DNA from: a virus
Direction: 5' to 3' (one strand)
IMG/VR virus record: IMGVR_UViG_3300031720_000021
Coordinates: 1 to 20,220 of that record
Length of the DNA: 20,220 nt
Position 1 is the first letter of the stretch, and each line of letters opens with the position of its first letter. The notes under the pieces were generated by a model that worked only from the letters and a program-made list of their open reading frames with translations, searched no databases and had not been told where the DNA came from. Position numbers and translations under genes: made by a program. Shown one piece after another: positions 7,795-19,814 of this stretch.

Positions 7795-7989
7795 ATGGCA
7801 ATTCCATTCACCATCGAAGAAGTTTGCGGACCACTCTTTCGAGTGGTACCGGCGAAAGACTTTTTAGGACCGGAAGAACATGGGTTTTTGGTATTTCACC
7901 GGGAAACGGGAAAGTTTGTTTACACTGGTGGTATTATGTCGGTGCGTAACGCGGCGCAAAAACTGATTGATGACATTTATCATCAATGA
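7795..7989 (+). CDS. Small hypothetical protein between terminase subunits
   Basis: The 64-residue protein, starting MAIPFTIEEVCGPLFRVVPA, is taken from the ATG at 7795. A longer frame from 7747 overlaps the end of the small terminase gene and reads as a shadow of it. It has alternating hydrophobic strands (HGFLVFHRETGKFVYTGGIM) and a C-terminal helix, so a small alpha/beta fold is likely. The stop overlaps the start of the large terminase (ATGA). No family is recognised. Confidence 0.65.
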   Translation: MAIPFTIEEVCGPLFRVVPAKDFLGPEEHGFLVFHRETGKFVYTGGIMSVRNAAQKLIDDIYHQ

Positions 7990-9578
7990 ACGTCGCCATT
8001 GATTTACGTCTTCATACTTGGTCGCCGCAGGAAGGTCCGCAGGACGATCTTTGCTCATGCCCGTTCCCTGAGATTTTTTTTGGAGGAAGCCGGGGAGGCG
8101 GCAAGACTGATGGAGTTCTGGGGAAATGGGCTCTGAAAGAGCGCCGCTACGGGCCTTTCTTTAACGCCATCATGTTCCGACGCACGTCGGTTTCGGCCGA
8201 AGATGCGATCGAGCGGTCGAAGGAAATCTATGGCCAGCTTGGCGGGAAGTTTCATGATCAGAAACTACGATGGCGTATGCCCAACGGCGGGCGCGTCGCG
8301 TTCCGTTATCTGGAATCAATCGACGATTCCAACGAATACCAAGGTCGCAACGTCAGCGATGCCTGGGTCGAGGAAGCAGGCCAATACGTGCAGCCCGATC
8401 CGATCGACCGTTTGTTTGGTGTACTGCGATCAAGCCACGGTGTTCCGATTCAATTAATACTTACCGCCAATCCGGGTGGGGCCGGCCAGCACTGGATCAG
8501 AAAACGCTACCAACTTCACCCATTTCCCGTGCGGCCTATGGTGCTGCGGCGCACATTGCCTGACGGCAGCGTTCACAAGGTCGCGGTTATCCCCTCGCGC
8601 ATCACCGACAACAAGATTCTGCTGGAAAACGACCCCGGCTATGTGTCACGATTGCATCTCGTTGGTTCCGCCCAACTCGTCAAGGCGTGGCTGGAAGGCG
8701 ACTGGACCGCGATCGAGGGGGCCTTCTTCGGAGAATGGTCGAATGAGCAACACGTTATCGCGCCGTTCGCTGTTCCGGACCATTGGCTGCGCTTTAGGAG
8801 CGGCGATTGGGGGTCGTATTCTCCCTTCTCGTTCGGTTGGTGGGCGGTCGTCTCCGATGACTTTGCACTTGCGGCAGGCGATGATCGAAGTGAATCCGTT
8901 TATCCCGGAGGATTCCATCGAACGAATGCGCAAGATTTGGCAGGGCGAGCAATGGACGGCCGAAGAACTCGCGTCCTTCCGCGCGGGGCGCTGGTCCGCT
9001 ACCGCGAATACTACGGCCAGCAAGGCGGCAAACTGACGGCAGAACAAGTGGCCTACGGACTTGTCCAACGCGAACGCTCCGATCCCAAGTTGGGCTACGG
9101 GGTGCTCGATCCGGCTACCTTCACCGAGGACGGCGGGCCGTCGATCGCCGAGCGTATCAACGCGGTCCTGATCGGCGAGAAGATGATGGCGTTCCGGCCG
9201 GCCGACAACGCACGCGTGACGCGCGATCCGAACAAAGGCGGCGCCATGGGCGGCTGGGACATGATGCGCCAACGCCTGATCGGCACGGCGAAGCGATTGG
9301 ACAATGGCGCGATCGACTGGTCGTCGGGGCGGCCGATGATCTATTACTTTTCCACGTGCAAGGATTCGATTAGGACAATCCCAGTACTCCAACACGATCC
9401 CAACCGATCGGAAGATTTGGACACCGACGCGGAGGATCATGCAGCCGATGACTCGCGCTACGGGTGCATGTCGCGGCCGTGGATCAAACAAGTAGCAAAG
9501 GACGGCGGGCAGCAATCGTCGGGCTACGCCCCGGTCGCGCGTTCGCAGAATCCCTATTCGTCGGTGCTTACGCAATGA
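7986..9578 (+). CDS. terL: Terminase large subunit (Terminase_6-like)
   Basis: The 530-residue protein is the ATP-driven packaging motor and nuclease. The Walker A motif GGSRGGGKT is at residues 33-41, Walker B with VSDAWVEEAG at 123-132, and the coupling motif LTANPGG at 159-165. The nuclease domain begins FRSGDWGS with Asp274, followed by acidic GVLDPATF (Asp375) and HAADDSRYG (Asp488/489) as probable metal ligands. IPRGALVRYREWYG-type sequence appears as LPRGALVRYREYYG (331-344). Just before it, residues 298-330 look like an extra segment with abnormal codon use, while another frame there reads as protein-like. Length and motifs are otherwise normal, so the enzyme is probably functional. 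Confidence 0.95.
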   Translation: MNVAIDLRLHTWSPQEGPQDDLCSCPFPEIFFGGSRGGGKTDGVLGKWALKERRYGPFFNAIMFRRTSVSAEDAIERSKEIYGQLGGKFHDQKLRWRMPNGGRVAFRYLESIDDSNEYQGRNVSDAWVEEAGQYVQPDPIDRLFGVLRSSHGVPIQLILTANPGGAGQHWIRKRYQLHPFPVRPMVLRRTLPDGSVHKVAVIPSRITDNKILLENDPGYVSRLHLVGSAQLVKAWLEGDWTAIEGAFFGEWSNEQHVIAPFAVPDHWLRFRSGDWGSYSPFSFGWWAVVSDDFALAAGDDRSESVYPGGFHRTNAQDLAGRAMDGRRTRVLPRGALVRYREYYGQQGGKLTAEQVAYGLVQRERSDPKLGYGVLDPATFTEDGGPSIAERINAVLIGEKMMAFRPADNARVTRDPNKGGAMGGWDMMRQRLIGTAKRLDNGAIDWSSGRPMIYYFSTCKDSIRTIPVLQHDPNRSEDLDTDAEDHAADDSRYGCMSRPWIKQVAKDGGQQSSGYAPVARSQNPYSSVLTQ

Positions 9579-11425: not shown

Positions 11426-11659
11426 GTGTCGGACGAAAACATTCCTAACGCTTCGGGCGTCTATCCGGTCAACCTCACCCGCGCCGGGGTGACCGGCAAG
11501 GTGATGCACCGTGCGCCGAATGCGGCGAAGACGGGACCGTCATCCGGAAAGACACGCGGCGGTAAGATGTCGGCCCACCGCAAGCGGCACGTCAAGGGGT
11601 TGATGCGCCAAGGGCTGATCTCGCAGAAAGCCGCGGCGCGCAACGGGCTTGCGCGATGA
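11426..11659 (+). CDS. Small basic protein with GxIS tail
   Basis: The 77-residue protein starts with GTG, preceded by GGAAG. It is Gly/Ser/Lys-rich and probably flexible in the middle (PNAAKTGPSSGKTRGGKMSA). It then turns basic (HRKRHVKGLMRQ) and ends GLISQKAAARNGLAR, nearly the same as the tail of the 10352-10666 protein. The stop overlaps the start of the ATP-grasp gene (ATGA), so the two are probably translated together. A structural, DNA-binding or substrate role next to that enzyme is possible; none is demonstrated. Confidence 0.7.
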   Translation: MSDENIPNASGVYPVNLTRAGVTGKVMHRAPNAAKTGPSSGKTRGGKMSAHRKRHVKGLMRQGLISQKAAARNGLAR

Positions 11660-13023
11660 CTGATCTTTCGAAGAAAACCGCGTTCGTGTGGGATTCAGGC
11701 CAGTGGGTCGAACTAGCGGTGGCGCTCGCCAAACGTTTCGGGACTGTCTACTACTATTGCCCGTGGGAAGACGGCTATCCCGCCTCCAGTCAGTTGATGA
11801 TCGGGGAGGGCATTCCCAACGTCGAGCGCGTGCATTCTCTGTGGCCGCTGATCGACGACATTGATTTGTTTGTTTTCACCGATGTTTATCAAGGCGCTCT
11901 GCAGGATTATTTGGTATCACTCGGAAAAAGGGTGTGGGGTTCTCGTAGCGGCGAAGAATTGGAGTTAAACCGCCCAGCGTCAAAACGCATATCCCGGCGT
12001 TTCGGCATTGATGTCGGCGACTATGAGATCGTGCGCGGGATCGAGGCGCTGCATTCTTTCCTTAAAAAGAACGACGACCAATGGGTGAAAGTGTCGACCA
12101 CGCGCGGCGACATGGAAACATTTCATTCAAAGACCTACGACCTGGTCAAGGACACGCGCTTGCCCGAACTTGAACACCGGTTGGGCGCCAAGTCCGCGAT
12201 CATGGAATTCGTCTGCGAAGCCGGGATCAACGATGCAGTCGAAGTCGGCTATGACGGCTACACCATCGATGGCAAGTTCGCCAAGACCGCGCTTACCGGC
12301 GTCGAGAGCAAAGACAAGGGGTACGTCGGATGCGTGTTGCCCTATGGGCAAGTCCCTAAGCAGGTGCGCGAGGTCAACCGCAAGCTTAGCCCCGCCTTGA
12401 AGGGCTACGGCTACAAGGGGTTTCTATCGACCGAAATCCGCTGCACCGACGATGGCGCCGCTTATCTGATCGACCCGTGTTGCCGTTGCGCTTCGCCGCC
12501 GTCGGAACTCTATCAGTTGATCATCGGTAATCTCGCCGATGTGATGTATGAAGGCGCGGGCGGCGTTTTGGTCGAGCCGGATTTTTCAGCGCGTTGGGGC
12601 GCAGAACTCATTCTCACGTCCGAATGGGGAATGACCAACTGGCAACCGGTGGCGTTTCCAGGTAAATATCGCGACAACGTGAAACTGCGCAACTTGTGCA
12701 TCATCGACGGGAAATACTATTGCGTCCCGGAAAAGACCGGCACCTGCTCGGCGATCGGTTCGGTGGTGGCGACCGGCAAGAGCGCGACGGAAGCGATCGA
12801 GCACTGCAAGGAAATCGCAGGCGAAGTCGAAGGCCAGGACATCACCTTTGCGGGCGACGCGCTCGCCGAAGCACACGAAAGCCTGATCGAATTGGTTGGC
12901 GATTACGCCGACGACAGGCCAAAATCGAAACTGGAAACACGCGCCTATGATCTGCTCAAAACCGGGCGGATTTCGCCGCGGCAGCACGCGAAGATGATGC
13001 AACGCGAACGCGCGGAGGTGTGA
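11656..13023 (+). CDS. PurD-like ATP-grasp protein of the virion gene cluster
   Basis: The 455-residue protein shows an N-terminal Rossmann-like start (KTAFVWDSGQWVELAVALAK). The middle looks like an ATP-grasp fold: WVKVS (143-147) with a Lys in the expected nucleotide-binding strand, IMEFV (182-186), GFLSTEIR (255-262) and YLIDPCCRCASPPSEL (270-285). The last segment aligns in form with the LEfNvRfGDPE metal-binding signature of phosphoribosylamine-glycine ligase (PurD), but with Asp for Glu and Cys for Asn. A PurD-like C-terminal domain follows (GSVVATGKSATEAIEHCKEI). A 25-residue tail with GRISPRQHAKMMQRERAEV closes the protein. ATP-grasp enzymes join carboxylates to amines or thiols. The substrate is unknown, and altered metal ligands could mean changed or lost activity. 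Confidence 0.7.
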   Translation: MTDLSKKTAFVWDSGQWVELAVALAKRFGTVYYYCPWEDGYPASSQLMIGEGIPNVERVHSLWPLIDDIDLFVFTDVYQGALQDYLVSLGKRVWGSRSGEELELNRPASKRISRRFGIDVGDYEIVRGIEALHSFLKKNDDQWVKVSTTRGDMETFHSKTYDLVKDTRLPELEHRLGAKSAIMEFVCEAGINDAVEVGYDGYTIDGKFAKTALTGVESKDKGYVGCVLPYGQVPKQVREVNRKLSPALKGYGYKGFLSTEIRCTDDGAAYLIDPCCRCASPPSELYQLIIGNLADVMYEGAGGVLVEPDFSARWGAELILTSEWGMTNWQPVAFPGKYRDNVKLRNLCIIDGKYYCVPEKTGTCSAIGSVVATGKSATEAIEHCKEIAGEVEGQDITFAGDALAEAHESLIELVGDYADDRPKSKLETRAYDLLKTGRISPRQHAKMMQRERAEV

Positions 13024-13547: not shown

Positions 13548-13801
13548 TGGTCACCCAAGATATGGCCGCTACTGTTTTGCAAGCAAAGCTTAATCTGATC
13601 GGACCTGGATTTGTCGCAACAGCTAGAATGTGTGGAGGCCATTTTCCGTTCTTTGCCCTCGGATTTGACGATACTGTTAGGAGAACTCGGCACGCTGCCA
13701 AATGCGACGACACTGATTGTAGTGATTGCATCGACGAAGTAGTCTCCGTTGCTCAAGAAATCCGCGCCGCTCCTACGCTTCCCGCTAATATGGTTTACTG
13801 A
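13547..13801 (+). CDS. Hypothetical protein with Cys-rich segment
   Basis: The 84-residue protein is taken from the ATG at 13547, which overlaps the previous stop by one base (TGATG). Upstream frame extensions lie inside that gene. It contains a Gly/Phe-rich strand segment (MCGGHFPFFALGFDD) and CDDTDCSDCIDE, which could bind metal. Its stop in turn overlaps the portal start by one base. Base composition is somewhat less GC-rich than its neighbours, suggesting a recent insertion. The function is unknown. Confidence 0.6.
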   Translation: MVTQDMAATVLQAKLNLIGPGFVATARMCGGHFPFFALGFDDTVRRTRHAAKCDDTDCSDCIDEVVSVAQEIRAAPTLPANMVY

Positions 13802-15846
13802 TGGACGCGCTTTCCGCCAACGAACTTGACCCGCGCCGCCGCGCCGCGCGCAACGGCCGCATGGCGGTGCCCGAAGACCGCGGCAATGGCCGGCGACAGC
13901 AAACCGAGGAAGCCGACGAAGAATCGTCGCAATTCCTCTCGATCGAAACCTTGCGTCGGCAGTACACCGATTATCTCACCAACAAGGTCGACGAGATCGA
14001 AGAACAGAAGGAAGCGCGGCGCTATTATCACGGCGCGTTCTATACCGCCGAACAGTTGCGCGTGCTCAAGGACCGCCATCAGCCACCGTTGCCCTTCAAC
14101 CGCACCTGCTACAAGATCAACGCCCGCGTCGGTCTGATCCAAGGGCGGCGCTCCGATCCCAAGGCGGTGGGCAAGAACCCGCAAGGCGAACAGGGTGCCG
14201 AGATCGCGACGCAATCGATCCGCACGGTGTTGTCCGACAATGAATTCAAATCGCAGGAATGGTGGTGCCTGCTGCAATCGGGCATCGACGGCATTTCCGG
14301 CGTGCAGTTGGTGCTCAAACAATTGAAGGATGGAAACCACAAGATCGTCATCGATTGGGTGATCGCCGATGAATATTTCTACGATCCCAATTCCTACCGC
14401 TGGGATTTCCGCGACAAGACCTACGAGGGAATTTCCAAGTGGTTCAAGATCGATGTTGCGGTCGGGCTATTTCCCGAGAAGGAGGAATTGCTCCGTTCGA
14501 TGCTCAATGCCGGGTCGGACCTGACCACCAATCCCGACCGCGAAATCAAGTGGACAATGACGACGGCGCAAAAGATTCGCATCGTCGAACACTGGTATCT
14601 GCGCAAAGGCAAATGGTGCTGGGCGTTCTACACCGGCACCGATCTGCTCGATCAGGGGGTGTCGCCGTTCGTCAATGACGACGGGGATTCGGAATCCGCC
14701 TTCCACATGTTTGCCCAGATGGTAGACCAGGACGGCGACCGCTACGGCTGGGTGCGCAACATCAAGGGACCGCAGGACGCGCTCAACGCCGGCAAGTCGA
14801 AATTCTTGCATCTGGCCAACTCACAGACGGTGCGCTCGACCAAGGGCGTGGTCGACGACGTACAGACCGCGCGGCAGGAGATTTCCCGGCCGGATGGCTG
14901 GATCGAGGAAAACCCGATCCCCAACGGCAAGCTCGAAATCCTCGACAAATCGAAAGACCTCGCGGCGTTCGCCGGCTTCATCGACGCGGCGGAAAAGGAA
15001 TTGGACCGCGGCGCCGAAGCCAATCTCTCGGCGCTCTCGGGCAACGCGCTTGGTAACATCTCCGGGCGTGCGATCGAATTGCTGCGCCAGCCCGGCATGG
15101 CCGAATTGGGGCCGGTGATCCTTTCCTGGCGCGCGTGGAAGTTGCGCCTGTTCCGCGGCATATGGAACGCGGCGCAACGCTATTGGACCAAGGAAATGTG
15201 GTTGCGCGTCAACAACGACGGGCAGTTGGCGCAATTCATTCAGTTGAACGGGCTCGGCCTTGATCAGTTCGGCCGCCCGGCGATCGTCAACGCGGTCGGG
15301 CACTTGGCTGTCAATATCGAGTTGGAGGAAGGCCCCGACATCGCGACCTTGATGCAGGATACCTACGACGCGCTCAAGGGCTATCCGCCCGGCACCTTCC
15401 CGCCGCAGGTGTTGATCGAACTCAATCCAAATATCCCACGGTCGGAAAAAAACCGCATCCTGCAAATGATGGCGCCAAAGCCGCAGCCGCCGACGCCCGA
15501 ACAACAAATACTCCAACGCCTCGCCTTGGAAGAAGCCGCCGGCAAGGTCGCGAAGACTGCGGCCGACGTGCGAAAGACACACGCCCAAGCGGAACAAGCA
15601 ACTGCGACGGCGCGCGAAAAACTCGAAGGCGTGGTGGACGAAGACCAGCGGCTCGATCTTGCCGCGCGGGAATTTGCGCGCGATACCTTGGTCCAGGCGG
15701 CGCAGGCGGCGCAGCCGCCGCAGGCGCCCGGAGCACAAGGCAATGGGCAAGTACGGGCGCCCGGCCCCGCGTCATCGCCCGACACCGCCATGCGCGCTGC
15801 GGCACTGATGCGCTCGTTCGTGCAACCGCCGCCAATCGGTCCTTAA
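13801..15846 (+). CDS. Portal protein, P22-like
   Basis: The 681-residue protein would form the dodecameric portal through which DNA enters the head. ARRYYHGAFYTAEQLRVLKD near residues 77-96 and PPLPFNRTCYKINARVGLIQ near 98-117, followed by GRRSDPKAVG, match the N-terminal region of P22-type portals. WWCLLQSGIDGISGVQLVL and VIADEYFYDPNSYRWDF continue the typical pattern. The C-terminus (about 565-640) is a long Ala/Gln/Glu-rich helix (LALEEAAGKVAKTAADVRKT), comparable to the barrel helix of P22 portal. The length is close to the family's usual size (about 700). The start overlaps the previous stop. Confidence 0.9.
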   Translation: MDALSANELDPRRRAARNGRMAVPEDRGNGRRQQTEEADEESSQFLSIETLRRQYTDYLTNKVDEIEEQKEARRYYHGAFYTAEQLRVLKDRHQPPLPFNRTCYKINARVGLIQGRRSDPKAVGKNPQGEQGAEIATQSIRTVLSDNEFKSQEWWCLLQSGIDGISGVQLVLKQLKDGNHKIVIDWVIADEYFYDPNSYRWDFRDKTYEGISKWFKIDVAVGLFPEKEELLRSMLNAGSDLTTNPDREIKWTMTTAQKIRIVEHWYLRKGKWCWAFYTGTDLLDQGVSPFVNDDGDSESAFHMFAQMVDQDGDRYGWVRNIKGPQDALNAGKSKFLHLANSQTVRSTKGVVDDVQTARQEISRPDGWIEENPIPNGKLEILDKSKDLAAFAGFIDAAEKELDRGAEANLSALSGNALGNISGRAIELLRQPGMAELGPVILSWRAWKLRLFRGIWNAAQRYWTKEMWLRVNNDGQLAQFIQLNGLGLDQFGRPAIVNAVGHLAVNIELEEGPDIATLMQDTYDALKGYPPGTFPPQVLIELNPNIPRSEKNRILQMMAPKPQPPTPEQQILQRLALEEAAGKVAKTAADVRKTHAQAEQATATAREKLEGVVDEDQRLDLAAREFARDTLVQAAQAAQPPQAPGAQGNGQVRAPGPASSPDTAMRAAALMRSFVQPPPIGP

Positions 15847-15856
15847 CCGCGCGCGA

Positions 15857-15879
15857 ATCATGCTAGCGTCGCGCATGAT
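15857..15879. repeat. Inverted repeat ATCATGC/GCATGAT after the portal gene
   Basis: Perfect 7-base arms at 15857-15863 and 15873-15879 flank a 9-base spacer. The repeat lies between the portal stop (15846) and the ribosome-binding site GGGGAGGA of the next gene. No T-run follows, so it is not a standard terminator. It could be an mRNA-stabilising or processing hairpin or a protein-binding site. Confidence 0.4.
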
Positions 15880-15900
15880 ATTTGACGGGGAGGATGCGCC

Positions 15901-16344
15901 ATGAATGCGCTCAAACTTCTGTTCGTCTGTGCGCGTTTGGTGTTCGGCGCGTTCGTGCTCTTTCTGGCGCTGGCGTCACCGGTACACGCGCAAACATCGG
16001 GGGCGATGCCCTTCTCGCTCATAAGCACCGCCAGCAACAATTCGACGCTCGTCTACAACGATCGCAACTGGCTTAAAACCGTGCTGGTCGGTAATTCGAC
16101 GGGAACGCAACAGTTCTTGAAGCTTTACGACAAGAGTACGGCACCGACCTGCGGAACCGATACGCCGGCCTTACGCATTGTCGTCCCGGCCAACACCAAC
16201 GGCGGCGGGATGGTGGCTTTGCATTTTACCGATACCAAGTTCAACAACGGCCTCGGCTTCTGTCTCGTCGGTGGGGCGGCCGACAACGACAATTCCAACG
16301 CGCAAGCCAGCGTCTATGTCAACCTGACCTTTACCCCGCAGTGA
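15901..16344 (+). CDS. Secreted phage protein with signal peptide
   Basis: The 147-residue protein has GGGGAGGA before its ATG. The N-terminus is a Sec-type signal peptide: basic start, hydrophobic core (LVFGAFVLFLALA) and likely cleavage after SPVHA near residue 30. The mature part reads as beta-strands: NWLKTVLVGNSTGTQQFLKL, then LYDKSTAPTCGTDTPALRIV and LGFCLVGGAADND. This strand pattern resembles small phage virion proteins that normally lack a signal peptide. Two Cys residues in the mature part could form a disulfide in the periplasm. The role may be surface-exposed or periplasmic; it is unknown. Confidence 0.75.
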   Translation: MNALKLLFVCARLVFGAFVLFLALASPVHAQTSGAMPFSLISTASNNSTLVYNDRNWLKTVLVGNSTGTQQFLKLYDKSTAPTCGTDTPALRIVVPANTNGGGMVALHFTDTKFNNGLGFCLVGGAADNDNSNAQASVYVNLTFTPQ

Positions 16345-16465
16345 AAAGCGGTTGACGCGCGCGCATGACGCTTGCGGCCTAACCCCGAATCACCCAACCA
16401 TCCCGGCGACCGATTTTCACCTTGAGGCTTTGACCTTGCCCGAATCCAAGCCCGTTGCCGCGCCG

Positions 16466-16762
16466 ATGGCGAAGAACGCGCACGCCGCGCCGATCGTCTA
16501 TTTTGACCACGCGCTCTCGTTCGGGCACTTGAACGGCGTCGTACAGGTCGAATTGGCTGCCAACATCATCCACTATCTCGCGGCGGACAAGACCGCGCTC
16601 GATCTGACCACCACCGGGCATCTGCGCTGCTCGATCGCGACCGCGAAGCTGTTGCGCGACGCGCTCGACGCCGTCATCAATCTCGCCGAAGGCGCCGCGC
16701 AGGCGCCCGCCCAAAACGGTTTCAAGGACTATCCGCGCGGCGAAGCGCGCCGGCCGTCCTGA
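16466..16762 (+). CDS. Hypothetical protein (98 aa) before the hairpin leader
   Basis: The protein, starting MAKNAHAAPIVYFDHALSFG, has a strand-rich first half (GHLNGVVQVELAANIIHYLA) and a helical second half (LRCSIATAKLLRDALDAVIN). It resembles small phage proteins that accompany capsid genes. The frame is open to TTG at 16352, with another TTG at 16436 following GAGG, so the start is uncertain. The ATG at 16466 is the conservative choice. The function is unknown. Confidence 0.65.
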   Translation: MAKNAHAAPIVYFDHALSFGHLNGVVQVELAANIIHYLAADKTALDLTTTGHLRCSIATAKLLRDALDAVINLAEGAAQAPAQNGFKDYPRGEARRPS

Positions 16763-16767
16763 CAACA

Positions 16768-16833
16768 GTTCGTCCGCGCCACGATACGGCGCCGCGGCGG
16801 GTGGCCGCGTTCGTCCTTGCCACGATACGGCAA
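16768..16833 (+). repeat. Direct-repeat pair A: two hairpins with ACGATAC loop
   Basis: Two near-identical 23-base units (16768-16790 and 16809-16831; 41 bases apart, two mismatches) each centre on an identical ACGATAC loop. Unit 1 can pair GCGCC (16776-16780) with GGCGC (16788-16792). Unit 2 pairs TTGCC (16817-16821) with GGCAA (16829-16833). The two differing stem positions change on both sides, so pairing is kept. The 41-base offset places the copies in different reading frames, arguing against a repeated peptide. Confidence 0.6.
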
Positions 16834-16845
16834 TCACCGTGCCGG

Positions 16846-16940
16846 CTTACGGACCCGGTTGTTTAATGGTCCGCCGCAGGCGACCGCGACAAGGCGCACG
16901 GCCCACTTACGGCCCCGGCTGATCATCAAGCGGGCCGCCG
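16846..16940 (+). repeat. Direct-repeat pair B: two CTTACGG hairpins
   Basis: CTTACGGACCCGG (16846-16858) and CTTACGGCCCCGG (16906-16918) recur 60 bases apart. Each can form a stem with a downstream partner: CGGACC/GGTCCG (16850-16855/16868-16873) and CGGCCC/GGGCCG (16910-16915/16932-16937). One A-T pair becomes C-G, preserving the stem, and CCG follows both 3' arms. In one frame both units also encode Tyr-Gly-Pro-Gly with synonymous differences, so a degenerate coding repeat is an alternative explanation. The region up to 16983 has no convincing gene. Confidence 0.5.
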
Positions 16941-16983
16941 TCCGGTCGAGACGACACCCCGACACAGTTAGAGGTCTGCCACC

Positions 16984-18057
16984 ATGCCTACACCGCAAGA
17001 CGACTCCGACGCCTTCATCAACGCCGCGGAAGCGGCGGCGATCCAGGACGCAATCGACGGCACGTCGAACGAAATCTTCAATGCCGGCTTCGGCAAGGAA
17101 GACGACGATGACGTGATCGATGAAACCGGCGACCGTTCGCTCGAAGCTTTGGGCGAAGGGTTGGAAGGCGAAATCCTACCCCCCGACGACGAGGCGGTCG
17201 AGGGCGAGGAAACCGGAGAGACTGAACCAAAGCCGCGCAAAGACGAGACGGAGAAAGAACCCGTCGCCGCCAAGCCGGGCGAGGAAACACCCGCAGCCGA
17301 ACCGCAAGGAACGGTGCCGCCTGCGGTGCATCGCAAGGCGTTGGAACGCGCGCGCGCGGCGGAAGCCGAACGCGACGGACTCAAAACGTCGTACGATGAA
17401 CTCAAAGGTCAATTCGGTACGCTCTCGGCCAAGCTCGACGGACTGATTTCGGGATTGTCGCGGCCACAGCAAAAGACGGAAGCCGAGACGAAGCCCGAAG
17501 CGGAAGTCATCCCCGATATCCTCGAAGACCCCCGCGGTTATGCGGAGTATCTGTCCCGGCGGCAGAACGCGAGTTTGCAGCCGGTGTTGCAGGCACTCGA
17601 AAACAGTCGCGTCGAGACTTCGATGGGACTTGCTCACGCCCGCCATGGTCAGGCGTTCGATTCAGCCATGGAAGCGATCGGCAAACTCAACCCGCAAAAC
17701 GCCGAGCATGTGGTGCAGGTCCAGCGCATCTACCGCTCACCCAATCCGGGCGAAGCGCTGGTGTCCTGGCACAAGCGCAACGTCGCCTTGGCGGAAGTGG
17801 GCGATGATCCGAGTAAGTATCGCGAGCGAATCGCAAGCGAACTGCGCAACGACCCCACGTTCATCAAGTCGGTGATCGAGGCGGCGCAGGCGCAAGCGAA
17901 CGGCAATGGCTCTGGCAGGCCGAACACCACAATCAAAGTGCCGCGTTCCTTGAATGGAGCAAGCGGCTCATCTGCCCGTACGGACGACGGGATAGCCGGT
18001 ATCTCCGGTCTCGACGACCAGCAGGGCATTTTCGATTCGGTGTGGTCCGATCGCTGA
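16984..18057 (+). CDS. Scaffolding protein (probable)
   Basis: The 357-residue protein is preceded by AGAGG about 9 bases before the ATG. The N-terminus and residues of about 35-105 are strongly acidic and disordered (DDDDVIDETGD; EAVEGEETGETEPKPRKDET). A central coiled-coil-like helix follows (ALERARAAEAERDGLKTSYD), and the C-terminal half is helical. An acidic, coiled, Pro/Glu-rich protein directly upstream of the major capsid gene is the usual profile of a scaffolding protein that shapes the procapsid and is then lost. No protease motif is seen. The assignment rests on composition and position. Confidence 0.7.
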   Translation: MPTPQDDSDAFINAAEAAAIQDAIDGTSNEIFNAGFGKEDDDDVIDETGDRSLEALGEGLEGEILPPDDEAVEGEETGETEPKPRKDETEKEPVAAKPGEETPAAEPQGTVPPAVHRKALERARAAEAERDGLKTSYDELKGQFGTLSAKLDGLISGLSRPQQKTEAETKPEAEVIPDILEDPRGYAEYLSRRQNASLQPVLQALENSRVETSMGLAHARHGQAFDSAMEAIGKLNPQNAEHVVQVQRIYRSPNPGEALVSWHKRNVALAEVGDDPSKYRERIASELRNDPTFIKSVIEAAQAQANGNGSGRPNTTIKVPRSLNGASGSSARTDDGIAGISGLDDQQGIFDSVWSDR

Positions 18058-18116: not shown

Positions 18117-19280
18117 ATGGCCTATACGACCACCCAAGCCAACAACAAACTCGTTCGCTTCCGCAAGGAAGTGTGGAACGAGTACATTCGCGAGAACCTG
18201 TATTCGCCCTACATGGGCAACAGTTCGAACGCGATCATCCACGTCATTGCCGACTTGAACAAGGGCGGCAAGAACGGAGGCGAGCAGATCAACATCCCGG
18301 TGATGGCCCGCCTCAACGCCCAAGGCGTCGGTGTCGGCCCGCTGGTCGGCAACGAAGAAGCACTCGACAACTACGGGCAACGCTGCTGGGTCGACTGGTC
18401 GCGAAACGGCGTGGCCATTCAGAAAGCCGAGCAGAACAAATCCTCGATCGACCTGTGGGCGCAACAGCAGCCGCGTCTCACCGATTGGGGAAAGGAAAAG
18501 CAGCGCGACGAGATCATCGACGCGTTCTATGCGCTGCCGTCCGAATCCGCTCCGGTGGGGCTTGGTTCCAACAACGGGCAGCGCGTCAACGGCGTTCTGT
18601 TCGATGCAGCTACCGCGGCGCAGCGCAACACGTGGTTGACCGACAATGCCGACCGCGTGCTGATCGGGTCGGGCAACGGCGCCAACCTAGTCGCCGGCAA
18701 CTTCGCGGCGTCGATGGCCAATATCACGTCTGGCATGACGCTCTCGCACGCCCTCATCACCCGCATGAAACGCTCGGCCAAGAAGGCGAACCCGCGCATC
18801 CGTCCGTTCAAGGTCAAGGAGAACGGAACGGAATGGTTCGTCCTGTTCGTCGGGCAGGAGCAGTTCCGCGACGCGCAGAACGACGCCACCATCCTGACGA
18901 ACAACCAGAACGCCCGCGCCCGCGAGGGCAACGCCATGATGAAGAACCCCATCTTCGTCGATGGCGATCTGCTCGACAACGGGGTGATCATCCGGGAAAT
19001 CCCCGAACAGTCGATCCGCCTGCCGGTGTTCTATTCGAACGCCGGATCGGGCGGCATTCAGGTGGCCCCGGCCTTCCTCTGCGGGCAGCAGGCGCAAGCC
19101 TGGTGCTGGGGTCAGATGCCGCTGCCGACCTTCCGTCGCGAAGACGACTACGGCTTCATTCGCGGCGTCGGGATCGAAATGTGCTACGGCGTCGCCAAGG
19201 TGTTCAAGAAAACCTTGGCGGGAAACTTGCGCGAATGGGGCATCTACACCGGCTTCTTCGCCGCCGTCGCGGACAATTGA
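18117..19280 (+). CDS. Major capsid protein (DUF4043-like)
   Basis: The 387-residue protein begins MAYTTTQANNKLVRFRKEVW. It continues with NLYSPYMGNSSNAIIHVIAD, INIPVMARLNAQGVGVGPLV and GNEEALDNYGQRCWVDWSRN. The order of a KEVW...ENLYSPYMG start, a GxxI strand region and GxEEAL is what I recall of the DUF4043/phage capsid family, associated with P22-like portals. Later parts (FVLFVGQEQFRDAQNDATIL; DGDLLDNGVIIREIPE) are consistent with the same family. Location after the scaffold gene supports the call. Only AGG lies before the ATG. Confidence 0.85.
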   Translation: MAYTTTQANNKLVRFRKEVWNEYIRENLYSPYMGNSSNAIIHVIADLNKGGKNGGEQINIPVMARLNAQGVGVGPLVGNEEALDNYGQRCWVDWSRNGVAIQKAEQNKSSIDLWAQQQPRLTDWGKEKQRDEIIDAFYALPSESAPVGLGSNNGQRVNGVLFDAATAAQRNTWLTDNADRVLIGSGNGANLVAGNFAASMANITSGMTLSHALITRMKRSAKKANPRIRPFKVKENGTEWFVLFVGQEQFRDAQNDATILTNNQNARAREGNAMMKNPIFVDGDLLDNGVIIREIPEQSIRLPVFYSNAGSGGIQVAPAFLCGQQAQAWCWGQMPLPTFRREDDYGFIRGVGIEMCYGVAKVFKKTLAGNLREWGIYTGFFAAVADN

Positions 19281-19310
19281 GAACTCATGAGAACGGAAAG
19301 GATCAGACTC

Positions 19311-19814
19311 ATGAACAGGCTGTTCAAGGGACTTGTCGCCGGGCTCATGCTGCTCGGCCTCGGTGCGGTCGCGACCGCGCTCAATCAAGACCAGACGCGT
19401 ACCTTCCCGGTGCGGGTCTTCTCCACCCAACAGGTGCATTACTACCGCCTGTCGATCAACTTTAACGATCCAAACATATCGACTGCGCAAAAGTTTGGCG
19501 CGATCGGGCAGAACGCCTTCATTGAAAACGTCGAATGTGAAGTGGTGACCGCGTTCAACGCGGGAACCACCAACAATCTGACGCTTGGCACGACCACCAA
19601 TGCCAACGAAATCGTGGCGGCGGCTGATCTGCCCGGCGGCGGCACGTCGTCGATCTCGACCGGCGTTACGAGGGTGACCCGCGGATTTGGGCGTTCGTTG
19701 ACGGCGTCGGGCGATACGACGCTGTTTGCCAAATACACGCAGACCGGCACGGCAGCCACCACCGGCCAAGCGATCTGTGTGGTCACATATCTCCCCGCCA
19801 ACGATCTCGGGTGA
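19311..19814 (+). CDS. Signal-peptide protein after the major capsid gene
   Basis: The 167-residue protein is taken from the ATG at 19311, preceded by GGAAAGGA; an earlier ATG at 19287 has no such site. The N-terminus MNRLFKGLVAGLMLLGLGAV is a typical signal peptide or single membrane anchor. The mature part is Thr/Asn/Gly-rich and strand-forming (TTNNLTLGTTTNANEIVAAA). Cys residues lie in NVECEVV and GQAICVVTYL, possibly a disulfide pair. A secreted or membrane-linked protein between capsid genes is unusual. It may be a decoration or host-surface protein; this is inference. Confidence 0.7.
   Translation: MNRLFKGLVAGLMLLGLGAVATALNQDQTRTFPVRVFSTQQVHYYRLSINFNDPNISTAQKFGAIGQNAFIENVECEVVTAFNAGTTNNLTLGTTTNANEIVAAADLPGGGTSSISTGVTRVTRGFGRSLTASGDTTLFAKYTQTGTAATTGQAICVVTYLPANDLG

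Follow-up and report, generated by a model that had tools for sequence, protein, structure and literature searches.

The window analysed here, the 20,220-base IMG/VR virus fragment IMGVR_UViG_3300031720_000021, carried its genes in a P22-like order: a terminase gene (7986-9578), a P22-like portal gene (13801-15846), a presumed scaffold gene (16984-18057, plus strand) and a major capsid gene (18117-19280, plus strand; PF13252 Phage_capsid_3, phrog_334). The presumed scaffold protein, of 357 aa and with no family match, was assigned by the position of its gene between portal and capsid and was acidic (net -30). A 221-nt gap (16763-16983) separated a stop codon (16762) from the ATG of this gene (16984) and contained a presumed Shine-Dalgarno sequence, AGAGGT (16970-16975, plus strand), which was recognized by its sequence and is set off from the ATG by a spacer of 8 nt. 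Scanning this leader for sigma-70 promoters and terminators revealed none. DNA similarity searches against named phages yielded chance-level matches only, and a search of viral contigs with the scaffold protein returned zero relatives, presumably because this protein diverges fast. The bacterial contigs with the closest capsids came from Bradyrhizobium and other Rhizobiales.

The stretch from portal to leader (15847-16762 in the window, and the same place in relatives) appeared to be a cargo hot spot. Two small cargo genes with no Pfam or PHROG family match occupied it in the window (15901-16344 and 16352-16762), the near-identical leaders of L003 and L004 were preceded by different genes, and tRNA-like sequences occurred there in L156, L344 and L381. 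Between terminase and portal, 11656-13023 encoded a 455-aa protein with no Pfam match. The gene 3' of the capsid (19287-19814) had a weak PHROG match to an Rz-like spanin (E = 4e-5), which would be odd for a gene so placed in the head cluster; it could equally well encode a cement or decoration protein, and the phage Pam1 has a cement gene at the corresponding place.

Six tandem H-type pseudoknots (A1a, A1b, B1, A2, B2 and A3) were predicted in the gap, spanning approximately 16770-16963 on the plus strand, and the pairs of each were verified. A1a (16770-16792), for which the family showed covariation, consisted of stem S1 (TCGT 16770-16773 with ACGA 16781-16784) and stem S2 (GCGCC 16776-16780 with GGCGC 16788-16792), with loops L1 CC and L3 TAC. 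A1b (16811-16833) was a covarying copy of it, with S1 TCGT 16811-16814 and ACGA 16822-16825, and S2 TTGCC 16817-16821 and GGCAA 16829-16833. The hairpin CGCGGC/GCCGCG between the two copies (16793-16809, plus strand), its pairs likewise verified, was found in the window only; it is possibly a shortened B unit, and among the parts of the window it alone could be chance. B1 (16841-16873), identified with the help of comparative counts, paired GCCG 16841-16844 with CGGT 16856-16859 (S1) and CGGACC 16850-16855 with GGTCCG 16868-16873 (S2). A2 (16875-16897), in which relatives showed a C-G to G-C swap of S1, was formed by CGC 16875-16877 with GCG 16886-16888 (S1), and by GCG 16880-16882 and CC 16884-16885 with GG 16893-16894 and CGC 16895-16897 (S2). 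B2 (16899-16937), placed by the alignment of leaders, comprised CGGC 16899-16902 with GCTG 16918-16921 (S1) and CGGCCC 16910-16915 with GGGCCG 16932-16937 (S2). The terminal unit closest to the start, A3 (16939-16963), was delimited by comparison with relatives; it joined CGT 16939-16941 with ACG 16951-16953 (S1) and GTCGAG 16945-16950 with CCCGAC 16958-16963 (S2), and with one A-C mismatch its S2 was weaker than that of A3 in relatives.

The A units had a classical geometry: S1 spanned 3-4 bp and S2 5-6 bp, L1 was about 2 nt long, L2 was absent and L3 (NAC) measured about 3 nt. They followed the form 5'-U[C/G]G[U/C]-NN-S2(5-6 bp)-[A/G]C[G/C]A-NAC-S2'. The usual order in relatives was A1-B1-A2-B2-A3, then the Shine-Dalgarno sequence and ATG; in the window A1 was doubled with the hairpin between its copies, giving A-A-B-A-B-A. 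A first-pass annotation of this DNA had described tandem covarying hairpins at 16768-16940. Both repeat pairs on which it relied were present: GCGCC-ACGATAC-GGCGC (16776-16792) and TTGCC-ACGATAC-GGCAA (16817-16833), which sit in a 23-nt direct repeat, 91% identical, at a spacing of 41, and the CGGACC/GGTCCG and CGGCCC/GGGCCG pair, which corresponds to the S2 helices of B1 and B2. The position and the tandem, covarying character of the element held, but the predicted fold consisted of pseudoknots rather than simple hairpins, since the loop of every A unit finds a pairing partner in TCGT, CGC or CGT upstream, which had escaped notice, and the element reached to about 16963, taking in A2 and A3, which had also been missed.

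Folding of the gap, a check suggested in the same annotation, gave no support. The nested fold of 16763-16983 was no better than that of shuffled sequences (z = -0.04) and contained none of the pseudoknot structure; the minimum-energy fold of the whole leader was a different, long-range structure, and single units folded alone reached modest z values. Nested folding was uninformative here because pseudoknots are not modelled and the GC content is high, and the case must therefore rest on comparison. Relatives were gathered by their capsid protein, yielding 80 viral contigs at 61-78% identity, further viral contigs and 39 bacterial contigs, and the scaffold leaders of these capsid-related contigs bore elements of this type. 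Of 85 distinct ACGANAC occurrences on the leader sense strand at related loci, 62 had a flanking stem of 4 bp or more; this test involved no selection for stems. The corresponding figures were 24 of 279 and 9 of 96 elsewhere, and 0 of 14 on the leader antisense strand.

An alignment of 20 leaders carried the comparison to single base pairs. In it, 95.5% of the proposed pair cells were paired, and 13 pairs changed on both sides, against a shuffled mean of 4.4 and a number reached in 0 of 500 shuffles; sliding the structure by 1-3 columns as a control lowered pairing to 25-55%. A separate count over A1-B1-A2, with both B1 helices included, had the same covariation outcome. The knotted helix followed a simple rule, by which loop ACG, GCG or ACC was matched by an upstream CGT, CGC or GGT: 107 of 122 A units were cognate (ACG-CGT, 80 of 89; GCG-CGC, 16 of 19; ACC-GGT, 10 of 12), whereas 2000 shuffles averaged 66 and never exceeded 79. 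The C-G to G-C swap of S1 appeared in all three A units in different phage subsets (8, 4 and 5 of the 20 leaders), and the capsid tree indicated separate swap events numbering at least five for A1, two for A3 and one for A2. RNAalifold on its own recovered the knot helix of A3 and S2 of B2.

The B units, H-type as well, were interspersed with the A units. The B1 pseudoknot topology was present in 17 of 20 leaders, with a mean score of 8.0 compared with 2.8 in shuffles; most leaders combined S1 CGGC/GCCG with S2 GGGTT/AACCC, L015 had CGGTC/GACCG with CGGAGA/TCTCTG, and L034 had ACGGC/GCCGT with CGGGCT/AGCCCG. For B2, relatives showed S1 ACGC/GCGT and S2 GGTCC/GGACT together with covarying variants, as well as a variable extra hairpin in L3. 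G-U pairs were in use, for example at B2 columns 153/208, with 10 G-U pairs. A covariance-model search, likewise suggested beforehand, was carried out with an A1-B1-A2 model built from 19 relatives and excluding the window, and it matched 16767-16897 on the plus strand (E = 9.7e-8), indicating that the element in the window is more than chance.

These results bear on whether the leader is a decayed coding repeat or a set of chance repeats in GC-rich DNA. Both TACGGACCCGGT and TACGGCCCCGGC could encode YGPG, from which the first-pass annotation had allowed that the B pair might be a decayed YGPG-coding repeat, and the unremarkable nested fold would suit chance repeats. The changes among relatives were compensatory in both arms and broke the frame, however, and neither the independent model match nor the covariation would be expected of such repeats. 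For the family this reading is already refuted by the comparison of sequences, and we regard it as barely credible. The earlier proposal of selected RNA structure in the scaffold/capsid leader gained strong support from covariation in relatives. Comparison thus speaks for the predicted structure of the array, as well as for its strand, conservation and place, and the leader very likely folds into tandem pseudoknots.

The A unit was also confined in its genomic placement. An A-unit covariance model gave 85 matches in 572 kb, 84 of them on the leader sense strand, a figure that speaks to specificity and not to recall, as many of these sequences had entered the model; in 21 whole contigs the significant matches fell in the scaffold leader. 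A blind scan of 2.9 million viral contigs with the pattern TTCGTCNGCGCCACGANACGGCGC gave 19 matches, 16 of which had a capsid of the Phage_capsid_3 / phrog_334 family 961-1377 nt downstream; in the remaining three, the contig breaks off before the place where the capsid would be expected or close to it. The matches included lineages with capsids only 37-44% identical, among them L085, with three A units in a row, and L084 and L087, with GCG loops and CGC partners. In 243 genomes of Bradyrhizobium, the genus of L089, the exact A pattern had 0 matches. Throughout, the unit was recognizable as a constant UCGU/ACGA-type helix knotted with a variable, covarying stem, on the sense strand, before scaffold or capsid.

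Distant relatives carried another unit, C, in the same place, which the window itself lacked. It had a variable stem around GCCGCC and a loop complementary to a downstream GGGCG. Tandem C units preceded the scaffold gene of cyanophage Pam1, where an A-like unit lay beside the start, and the corresponding gene in Pan3. The stem was at least 3 bp long in 198 of 249 distinct units, compared with 62 in shuffles, and in 120 of 171 compared with 32 once units carrying the search-seed flank were left out. As the knotted helix is nearly invariant, its support came solely from complementarity. A C-unit pattern scan of viral contigs gave at least 121 matches. Among the matches listed, 89 had a capsid of the Phage_capsid_3 / phrog_334 family 57-1197 nt downstream, 20 lay within 1.5 kb of a contig end and 12 were others. 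Those 12 included L385 and L415, which precede phrog_1357 heads, L443, before a Phage_scaffold gene with a phrog_267 head, L437, before a head-scaffolding protein, and L373, before a Phage_capsid_4-type head; several of the remainder have the look of chance matches in GC-rich sequence. About 16 of the matches listed (including L263, L279, L337, L338, L341, L350 and L367) had the C array directly before the capsid gene, at 57-150 nt. In L415, a single perfect C unit (around 10360, minus strand) precedes the scaffold-capsid genes; this phage is apparently AT-rich and has a strong GGAGG ribosome-binding site, which suggests hosts far from Alphaproteobacteria.

A looser tandem C pattern was dropped for the tighter one, as it mostly matched stretches with no capsid, probably GC-rich coding DNA. 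A cellular origin of the C unit was also set aside: 385 alphaproteobacterial genomes contained 7 matches, roughly as many as the reversed-pattern control gave, and a Phage_capsid_3 / phrog_334 capsid was absent from all of the surrounding loci. Array-bearing phages spanned several phyla. Of 72 distinct C-type loci, 9 had a strong terminator ending 1-56 nt (mostly 1-12 nt) before the first matched knot. Strong intrinsic terminators were seen to end 1-12 nt before the first C-type pseudoknot in L340, L342, L344, L345, L346, L348, L381 and L405, and such a distance leaves little room for a promoter between them.

At gathering score, Rfam 15 had 0 matches in the window; six close relatives, searched up to E = 1, likewise gave 0, and seven distant relatives gave one 7SK match, outside the leader and below its gathering score. 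In open-licence papers we found no description of such an element. Leader pseudoknots and tandem pseudoknots are themselves already known, the nearest cases being the gene 32 knot and STAXI, and there is a fair chance that the A/B/C class deserves its own category. T4 gp32 represses its own translation via a leader pseudoknot, and gene 32 of T4, T2 and RB69 resembles the present case in having an H-type pseudoknot in a phage mRNA leader upstream of the ribosome-binding site (PMC3014915). That system has one pseudoknot, 67 nt upstream, which nucleates gp32 on an unstructured A+U-rich stretch (PMC3014915). The head leaders also place an H-type pseudoknot near the ribosome-binding site, but they have 3-6 tandem knots of unrelated sequence, the last touching the Shine-Dalgarno region, and the downstream genes are a presumed scaffold of no family and a PF13252 capsid, not a gp32 homologue. 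A knot at the start site also controls translation in ribosomal-protein leaders (S4, S15), which differ in being cellular, with a single knot and a different ligand.

STAXI (RF01728) is a pseudoknot in two to three tandem copies (PMC2864571), which is the sole respect it shares with the six knots here. It is enterobacterial, has UUCG tetraloops and lies near ssb, topoisomerase, antirestriction and integrase genes (PMC2864571), whereas the present array had no Rfam match and neighbours portal, scaffold and capsid genes. STAXI tandem pseudoknots have been discussed as possible single-stranded-DNA elements (PMC2864571), and the head-gene array might serve packaging, replication or single-stranded-DNA structure, or its leader might be processed into a phage RNA that acts in trans. 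We consider such roles very unlikely, as the array is tied to the head-gene start and to one strand, and the use of G-U pairs favours RNA over DNA.

P22 shares the gene order, and PMC5744158 reports feedback on scaffold synthesis there, citing Wyckoff & Casjens 1985 for autoregulation of the scaffolding protein (gene 8). The capsid here differs from that of P22 in being PF13252/phrog_334. We know of no pseudoknot array in P22.

Among the 53 distinct leaders parsed, nearly all left 3-25 nt between the end of the terminal A unit and the start of the scaffold gene; L193, L061 and L381 had the Shine-Dalgarno sequence within S2' of that unit. With the terminal knot at the start site, control would most naturally act at translation initiation. 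The 221-nt gap would then be the 5' leader of the scaffold-capsid mRNA, folded as an array of small H-type pseudoknots that may serve as a multi-copy binding platform, and the occupancy or stability of the terminal knot would decide the access of the 30S subunit to the Shine-Dalgarno sequence. The likeliest ligand would be a head-assembly protein giving feedback (autogenous) control. We infer translation as the controlled step and a protein as the ligand, and for an element that acts in cis to control translation of the head proteins, probably protein-bound and autogenous, the chances seem to us about even; T4 gp32 and the feedback of the P22 scaffold serve as precedents. Scaffold proteins were acidic (net -15 to -43) and had no basic patch, and capsids were near neutral, so that neither resembles a typical RNA binder; this acidity weakened the scaffold as the obvious RNA-binding ligand. 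C-unit pseudoknots before heads of other capsid families argue against one capsid-specific ligand, and in some phages the array stands immediately before the capsid gene rather than the scaffold gene. The A-C mismatch of A3 in the window and the different, long-range minimum-energy fold of the leader also count against this reading.

The put RNAs of phage HK022 are likewise structured, tandem and cis-acting, but they are hairpins located close to early promoters, with RNA polymerase as their target; the head-leader array differs from them in place and sequence. The nascent array could similarly bind RNA polymerase and promote read-through of a long head-tail operon, since it is structured, repeated and restricted to the sense strand within a late operon, with conserved loops, and its presence in phages of several phyla would suit a ligand as universal as RNA polymerase. 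Yet the array stands immediately beside a start codon and in mid-operon, not at the operon start, and those terminators that were seen precede the array, out of reach of its action. Processive antitermination of this kind is, in our estimation, unlikely.

With the same terminators just upstream of C arrays, the 5' end of the mRNA may lie only a short way ahead of the array. There it could act as a protective or expression-boosting leader with no dedicated ligand for the phage's most highly expressed genes, either shielding their mRNA mechanically from 5' end-dependent decay (RNase J/E) or enhancing its translation. Its constant place before head genes, even those of unrelated capsid families, and its many copies agree with such a role. 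The conservation of loop letters (ACGANAC; GCCGCC..GGGCG) beyond what mechanical stability seems to need does not, nor does the holding of the terminal A unit at the ribosome-binding site, and we see this explanation as less likely than not.

The A, B and C arrays of miniature H-type pseudoknots would form a new, very widespread class of phage RNA preceding scaffold or capsid genes, a general, exchangeable module for control of head synthesis that answers to a ligand. This joint claim, whose scope extends over unrelated capsid families and over hosts from Alphaproteobacteria to Cyanobacteria, is one that we hold to be evenly balanced between right and wrong. It has long been asked how phages adjust the quantity and timing of scaffold in relation to capsid, and feedback by the P22 scaffold has been on record since the 1980s. 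Here, a pseudoknot array is tied to the head genes in many phages and is conserved in shape rather than in letters. Its simple loop and partner rules make compensatory-mutation tests easy, and the array provides a DNA signature by which head operons can be found in metagenomes. It may also offer a modular part for expression tuning in Alphaproteobacteria.
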